Positions 38,626-40,186 of a DNA stretch of 64,000 nt are shown here, one piece after another. The DNA is from Heliocybe sulcata. Taxonomy: Eukaryota; Basidiomycota; Agaricomycetes; Gloeophyllales; Gloeophyllaceae. A program made the translations under genes and the position numbers. How positions within the stretch are numbered: the first letter of the stretch is position 1; each line of letters opens with the position of its first letter. Below the pieces are notes generated by a model that saw only the letters and a list, made by a program, of their open reading frames with translations, was not told the origin of the DNA and did not search any database. The DNA lies in contig ML213504.1 in assembly GCA_004369045.1 (NCBI GenBank), forward strand, positions 1,970,894 through 2,034,893. The letters are read 5' to 3'.

Positions 38626-40186
38626 CTAATCCTCGTCTTCCATCTCCATCTTCACTTTCTTTTTCTTCTTCTTTTTCTTCTCCTTATCTCCCTCGTTGTC
38701 GGCTCGCTCCTCTGACTCCGTCTCCCTATGTTTCCGCTTTCTCTTCTCCTCAACGGTCGGCGCGGCATCCTCCACCGGCGCCTTGAACGCCTCGGCGCGT
38801 TCTGCTCGTCGCTGTTCTGTAACATCTTCTTGCTGCATGGAAATGAGTCAAAAGGTGAAAAACGGACGAATGAAACATACCTTCTGCTTCTTCTTCGCCT
38901 TCTCTCGTGCCTCCTTCTCCCGAGTCTTCAAGAAATACTCGCCTGTCTCCAGCTCGATATCCACCTTCCTCGGGGTCTGCGCAGGCGGGAACGGCGTGTA
39001 CACCTTCTTCTTCGTCCCCTCCTTCTCGCGCTTCCTGATTTCCTCCTCGTCCAGCCCTGCGTCCTTGAGCTTCTCGCGCTTCGCCTCGACGGCGGCGTTC
39101 TTCCGCGCGGTCTTCTCGGACGTCTTGAGGTGCCGCGTGCGGAACTGTGGGAGGAACCTGTCCCAGGACTCGGTGGCGAGCTTGGGGTCTTTGGCGAGCT
39201 CGCGTTTGATCATGAGTTCCTGGCGGTTGAGCAAGGTTAGCGTGCAGAGGGTAGTCGAAGGGGAGGGGGGACACACCTTTATGCGGTAGATGGGGTGGAT
39301 GTTTTTCATGCAGTCGAGGACTATGCGCCGGACTTCTTTCAGGCCCTTGTATGGGCCCATGACACTAACCGTACTCCCTTGTACCAACACATAACACTGC
39401 GTCAACAGCTCGATCGCCTACCGACCCCTTAGCTTTCGCCCGTACTGCACCCAACCGCTCACGCACCTTCAGTGTACTCCCATCCGGCCCGATAATCCTC
39501 TGCCTCCTCTTCACGAAGCGCTCTTTATTCCTTACAAGGCTCCCGATCTTGATAATATCGCACGCGACGGCGTCTTCGAGGATCCTCTGGGCCTGCGTGA
39601 CGCTGACGCCACGCGCGAGGAGCTTGACCATGTCGCGCGCTTTAAGGATGATGTAAGGGTCGTACGTCTTTCGGGTGGTACGCACGGACATGGAGCCGTG
39701 GACGAGGTCGAGCGTGCATGCGATGCCCTGTGAGTGCAAGAACGTCAGGGTAAGGCGGGAACGGAAGGGGAAAGGGTACGAACGTGGGTGTCGAGTGCCT
39801 TTGTGACGGCGCTCCAGACTTCCCGCAAGTACTTTTCGCGGTATTTGGGGAAGAGGGTGGCGAAGGAGGACTCTTCGGTGAAGGTGCCGCCCTTGTTGTC
39901 CTCAGGCTGGAAGGAATCGACTTTCCACTGTTTGCCATCGATGCGTAAGCATTCATAATGTAGTCTGAATGCAGACGCAGCTTACACTAGAAATAATGAT
40001 CTATGAGCTGAAATCCCATGCATAACCCAGGAAACACGGCTCACTGGTCGATATCGTCCGTATCCCATGCTATAGCGCATGGTCAGCGAAGTTTCAGGGT
40101 TTCTGAAAAAGCTGGTTCGCACGTTTATCCTTCCTATGCCGCTTGTTCTTGTTGACGACAACGTTCGCGTCGCTGCTCTCAGCCAT
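38626..40186 (-). CDS. KRR1: KRR1, KH-domain small-subunit processome factor
   Basis: Nucleolar RNA-binding factor needed for 18S rRNA processing and 40S assembly. The product reads [59 protein letters not shown], the KH region [16 protein letters not shown] and [13 protein letters not shown], then [35 protein letters not shown] and a Lys/Glu-rich end [10 protein letters not shown]. It matches the family over its whole length. ATG 40184-40186; stop 38626-38628. Exons at the 5' end are tiny: a 25-nt exon (40045-40069) and an apparent single-base exon (39986), each flanked by GT-AG introns. Divergent from the NCBP3-like gene, 166 bp apart. Confidence 0.95.
39986..39986 (-). other. KRR1: Single-nucleotide exon in KRR1
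   Basis: The 25-nt exon ends ATC GAC CA; the next recognisable exon starts TGG AAA GTC. One base is missing to keep frame. The interval has two back-to-back 58-nt introns: GTGAGC...TCTAG (39987-40044) and GTAAGC...ACAG (39928-39985), with one T between them. Adding that T gives CAT, so the protein reads DDID-H-WKVD; His at this place is what I recall from other Krr1 proteins. Each intron has a CTNAY-type branch (CTCAT, CTTAC). Sequencing error is the alternative. Confidence 0.7.

Follow-up and report, generated by a model that had tools for sequence, protein, structure and literature searches.

Exons of a single nucleotide have been described in plants and in fungi. In Arabidopsis, the single-nucleotide exon of APC11 was proven with cDNA and GFP constructs, and its authors proposed intron definition with stepwise removal of the introns; versions of the gene with the base changed, doubled or deleted were also made (PMC4674806). 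Microexons of 1 nt in APC11 and VPS55 are reported across land plants; for APC11 in soybean, RNA-seq was realigned with the junctions provided, as aligners overlook exons of 1 nt when not so guided (PMC8831610). In the Candida parapsilosis group, single-base exons in non-coding snoRNA host transcripts are supported by RNA-seq (PMC5033589), a finding that predates the report on Fusarium CYP621A, whose single-nucleotide exon is called there the first in a fungal gene and lies in an interval of 139 nt, more than twice the median intron (PMC12940212). Mitochondrial single-nucleotide exons also exist, with group II introns, and placozoan cox1 is listed as one case. In Phanerochaete, microexons of P450 genes can be as short as 6 bp. 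An earlier note on the DNA discussed here called one-base exons very rarely reported; this agrees with the literature found, although they are not unprecedented, fungi included. Searches of the open-licence literature (subscription papers lie mostly outside it) on 1-nt exons, basidiomycete microexons and KRR1 introns returned no case from a basidiomycete or from KRR1.

The gene of interest lies in a 64,000-nt stretch of Heliocybe sulcata DNA, referred to below as the window. It is KRR1, which encodes the SSU processome component Krr1, a protein of 393 aa (Table 1). The KH1 and KH2 domains are both present (PF17903, 112.6 bits, cut-off 23.4; PF21800, 161.2 bits, cut-off 27), and the best relatives among solved structures are the Krr1 proteins of yeast (433.6 bits), Chaetomium (394.8) and human (360.4). 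Two domain searches of the whole genome match this locus only, so the gene is single-copy. Scans with the KRR1 protein of two collections that are without fungal genomes as such gave 9 pattern matches in viral_contigs and 45 in genome_contigs, with no relative among them. Near its 5′ end KRR1 very probably contains two ordinary U2-type introns, A and B, each complete with donor, branch site and acceptor, which would be removed successively and leave a single exonic T between them.

Table 1. Features of KRR1 discussed in the text, in window positions.
Feature	Positions	Strand	Length (nt)	Description	Percentile among genome introns
KRR1 gene	38626..40186	-		8 coding exons including the putative 1-nt one, 7 introns	
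Exon 1	40123..40186	-	64	ATG start	
Intron 1	40070..40122	-	53	GTGCGA..TATAG	29th
Exon 2	40045..40069	-	25	KPWDTDDID end and first two bases of the His codon	
Intron A	39987..40044	-	58	GTGAGC..CTAG, branch CTCAT	43rd (total score)
Putative 1-nt exon	39986	-	1	T, third base of His codon CAT (His-30)	
Intron B	39928..39985	-	58	GTAAGC..ACAG, branch CTTAC	17th (total score)
Exon after intron B	39784..39927	-	144	begins TGG AAA GTC GAT (WKVD)	
Rival single intron	39965..40044	-	80	GTGAGC..TTCAG, in frame; 12-residue insertion replaces H	1.6th (total score, 315 introns)

The case begins with the reading frame. Exon 2 ends ..GAT ATC GAC CA, and its KPWDTDDID portion aligns with a conserved stretch of yeast and Chaetomium Krr1. 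If the whole interval 40044-39928 (117 nt) is excised, GAC CA joins the TGG of the next conserved block and the downstream frame is one base short. With the T retained, the codons GAC CAT TGG AAA GTC encode D-H-W-K-V, and the resulting protein, KPWDTDDID-H-WKVD, aligns without a gap at this point to yeast and Chaetomium Krr1 (KPWDTDDID-x-WK). In both of these proteins a single residue, Lys, separates DDID from WK, which fits the prediction of one codon. The human alignment, with a six-residue insertion just before the DHWK counterpart, does not discriminate between the models.

The base itself is preceded by AG and followed by GT (CTAG/T/GTAAGC), and the introns on either side are complete. 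The branch motif of intron A is AGCTCAT, with the A 18 nt from the intron end, and that of intron B is TGCTTAC, with the A 19 nt from the end; these score at the 49th and 56th percentiles, respectively, of 315 introns from the genome. The weak point of intron B is its purine-rich acceptor (GGCAAACAG), at the 1st percentile of the same introns. The coordinates, the intron ends and equal lengths, the frame shift on removal of the whole interval, the restored His codon and N-terminus, and a CTNAY branch in each intron had all been given in the earlier note, and all were recovered here. Its further observation, that the introns are equal in length and dissimilar in sequence, also held: their local alignment score is 30, while 300 random intron pairs have a mean of 27.8 and a 95th percentile of 37. 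The 123-nt stretch around them matches nothing but itself in the genome. A mobile or repeated origin of the pair was rejected on these two results.

The earlier note went further and held that a single-nucleotide exon is required. Intron enumeration and alignment both indicate that the base is needed for the conserved reading frame. The note overlooked, however, an in-frame GT-AG intron of 80 nt, and "requires" is slightly too strong, since removing this intron alone likewise preserves the frame, although 12 residues are then inserted. No other GT-AG pair achieves this with one intron, and the enumeration of single introns yielded no in-frame GC-AG pair. Its acceptor, TTCAG, is good (63rd percentile). 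Nevertheless, its low total score reflects its length and a sole branch candidate 40 nt upstream (5th percentile), and splicing at this site would have to pass over three AGs. The form with the insertion loses 21.0 bits against yeast Krr1 and 20.6 bits against Chaetomium Krr1, and none against human. This arrangement is quite improbable, whether as the predominant product or as a minor isoform. The predicted mRNA junctions differ: GACCA-T-TGGAAA for the 1-nt exon, GACCA-ACTACATT for the 80-nt intron, and GACCA-TGGAAA for neither.

The protein comparison is evidence that an ab initio gene finder does not use. A small self-training finder with no minimum exon length was written and run on 264 kb, made up of the window and 200 kb of contig 1. 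Version 1, which fused genes into a small number of very large ones (4 kept), was dropped; the intron-length and start/stop penalties were tightened after this was seen. The reference set, with KRR1 left out of training, comprises 54 genes and 315 introns; its introns are dense, with a median length of 54 nt. Trained in this way and given no protein input, the finder picks 40044-39987, the T and 39985-39928. This T is the sole 1-nt exon among 272 internal exons in 54 predicted genes; 11 of these exons are 12 nt or shorter. The choice depends on the intron-length model: the 1-nt structure was picked in six of eight settings with fitted lengths, being lost at the heaviest intron penalty, and in none of eight with flat lengths, where two settings still use a 1-nt exon, with the acceptor at 39907. 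When acceptor 39987 was forbidden, the finder took the 80-nt intron and the score fell by only 3.7 nats, branch sites being unscored; with branch sites scored, the 80-nt form trails the 1-nt model by 10.2 nats.

A wider enumeration covered GT-AG introns of 40-330 nt, at most three per structure, with low-scoring introns dropped, and gave 88 in-frame structures free of stops. The 1-nt form ranks first, with a score of 23.62. Another 1-nt form comes second (19.06); it uses a further acceptor, at 39907, and deletes WKVDSFQ. If the outer ends are left in place and two introns are allowed, the frame is preserved by four forms, whose middle exons measure 1, 4, 10 and 13 nt. The 10-nt middle exon (16.91) is the next-best structure after the 1-nt form to retain both WDTDDID and WKVDSF, followed by the 4-nt middle exon (15.49), the 80-nt intron (13.42) and the 13-nt middle exon (11.24). 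The forms with middle exons of 4, 10 and 13 nt are thus 6.7 to 12.4 nats lower, and they insert 1, 3 or 4 residues.

These middle-exon forms belong with several other arrangements that would also reconcile the frame: an AT-AC intron, a nested stwintron, or a -1 ribosomal frameshift after removal of the 117-nt intron. Fifteen AT-AC pairs are in frame, including 40054-39930, which begins ATATCG; every one, however, removes conserved residues, in WDTDDID or past it. In a [D1,2] stwintron, an internal GT must follow directly on a G, but there is no GGT in exon 2 or at its boundary, and excision of all 117 nt breaks the frame; the stwintron reading was set aside on both counts. For a -1 frameshift, no slippery heptamer was seen by eye at CATGGAAAG, and this reading was likewise set aside. 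All of these arrangements together are highly improbable. U1 must be present in the genome. Searches of the genome with RNA models gave no match for U6atac or U12; since U1 was also unmatched, and U6 was matched, they are uninformative on the minor spliceosome. The U6 snRNA gene matches number four (G000:C2:154217, C3:200945, C5:973380 and C5:1182063), each of 117 nt and 89.2 bits to a model of 105 positions.

An assembly or sequencing error is another way to obtain such a structure: if a base were missing at the junction, a single 117-nt intron would suffice. When an exon base was deleted at 291 of 322 junctions, simulating the loss of the last exon base before an intron, the finder placed a 1-nt exon no more than 200 nt away in 5 of the 291, so such calls can come from errors. 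At least three of these five, however, adjoin microexons of 7 or 10 nt that had already been called. At KRR1 the lost base would have to fall in the single codon that links DDID to WK, an indel within an intron being irrelevant, and there is no long homopolymer at the junction. Introns of this length are also rare: only 3 of 315 genome introns reach 100 nt, and the 117-nt intron scores at the 0th percentile.

Nor does an error account for two full sets of splice signals flanking one base. The likelihood of this occurring by chance was estimated by holding 6 nt at the start of the interval and 24 nt at its end fixed and either shuffling the core by dinucleotides or replacing it with genomic cores. 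Of 20,000 dinucleotide shuffles, 6 produced a 1-nt split scoring at least as high as the real one, and 2,536 contained some AG-N-GT split. Among 20,000 draws of genomic cores there was no such high-scoring split, with some split in 2,283; draws containing N were passed over without a separate tally. From the chance and simulation results, it follows that a plain assembly error would require the loss of a base in a particular codon plus an uncommon coincidence of signals, and we regard it as very unlikely. The single-nucleotide exon is thus supported by homology, by intron scores set against 315 others, by a finder trained without KRR1 and by the shuffle null. The splice signals can be read from the DNA itself, as can the fact that restoring the conserved protein takes exactly one additional base; from these we infer the splicing of a putative single-nucleotide exon in KRR1, which we consider well supported.

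In the most probable arrangement, two introns separated by one T, each intron would be recognized across itself (intron definition). Removal of introns A and B would then be successive, since the acceptor of A overlaps the donor of B and both cannot be handled at once, and the T would be left as the third base of His-30. Since both introns are complete, nested splicing would not be needed. Either order of removal would give an identical mRNA. The donor of intron B scores 5.73 with intron A gone (CAT/GTAAGC) and 5.18 before (AGT/GTAAGC), and the acceptor of intron A scores 4.80 with intron B gone and 4.48 before; as each site is only slightly better after the other intron has been removed, the scores give no clear order. 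A more elaborate reading joins these elements. Here the T is obligatory, two independently acquired introns lie one base apart, and KRR1 mRNA needs two splicing events that are unable to co-occur; failure of the order would lead to the acceptor at 39965 and a Krr1 longer by 12 residues, in effect a splice switch. As a whole, this reading is improbable.

Other small or unusual exons were predicted in the same DNA. In the window, an 11-nt exon (GATGAAATGGG) is predicted in the region 20723-20834 (+), within the conserved DEMGMGKT motif of a helicase that, from this motif, we take to be RAD16-like, and a 10-nt exon is predicted further along the same gene. In a WD40-repeat-like gene (G000:C1:1115259-1115361, L016), a 103-nt intron is split into two abutting introns at CAG/GTACGG, with an exon of zero length, which may be a recursive splice site or just a long intron. 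Two paralogous phosphodiesterase-like genes, at G000:C1 joined positions 93159-96087 (-) and 124858-128060 (+), carry predicted exons of 7 and 10 nt at matching places, which suggests that these are conserved microexons.

The KRR1 candidate lies in a conserved single-copy ribosome-assembly gene, and its introns are complete and of typical length. It therefore offers a clean substrate for studying the order in which abutting introns with overlapping sites are removed. A simple self-trained finder without a minimum exon length can recover 1-nt exons, and a survey of fungal genomes is feasible.

Among the described systems, APC11 resembles KRR1 in being an essential single-copy gene whose frame is restored by one base lying between two spliceosomal introns. 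The expectation of successive removal in KRR1, based on the overlap of adjoining signals, parallels the argument of the APC11 authors. APC11 differs in being a plant gene with a first intron of 333 nt (authors' numbering), in the base, an A, and in having been proven experimentally, where KRR1 is inferred (PMC4674806). The APC11 and VPS55 microexons are of the same size as the KRR1 exon and also lie in conserved genes, and the plant ones are usually absent from annotations; they differ in being plant exons that are RNA-supported and phylogenetically conserved (PMC8831610).

In stwintrons, as in KRR1, two adjacent U2 introns need successive removal, but there a splice signal of one intron is split by the other and no base is retained, whereas in KRR1 both introns are complete and one base would be kept. 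Searches within two stwintron papers turned up no mention of microexons. The Candida snoRNA host transcripts likewise have fungal nuclear spliceosomal introns one base apart; they differ in being non-coding and partly nested, so that removal of one intron rebuilds the splice site of its neighbor, which is not needed in KRR1 (PMC5033589). CYP621A shares with KRR1 a fungal protein-coding gene, a frame problem inside a conserved motif and a base between AG and GT. It is, in contrast, an ascomycete P450 gene whose function is not known, and its base is a G (AGGGT), a consensus base at exon edges, rather than a T. It is also documented by 20 orthologues (abstract) and RNA reads from two species, whereas the KRR1 case comes from the sequence of one genome (PMC12940212). 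Set beside these systems, the KRR1 T is a well-supported putative single-nucleotide exon of a known, rarely reported kind, and probably the first to be noticed in this fungal group.
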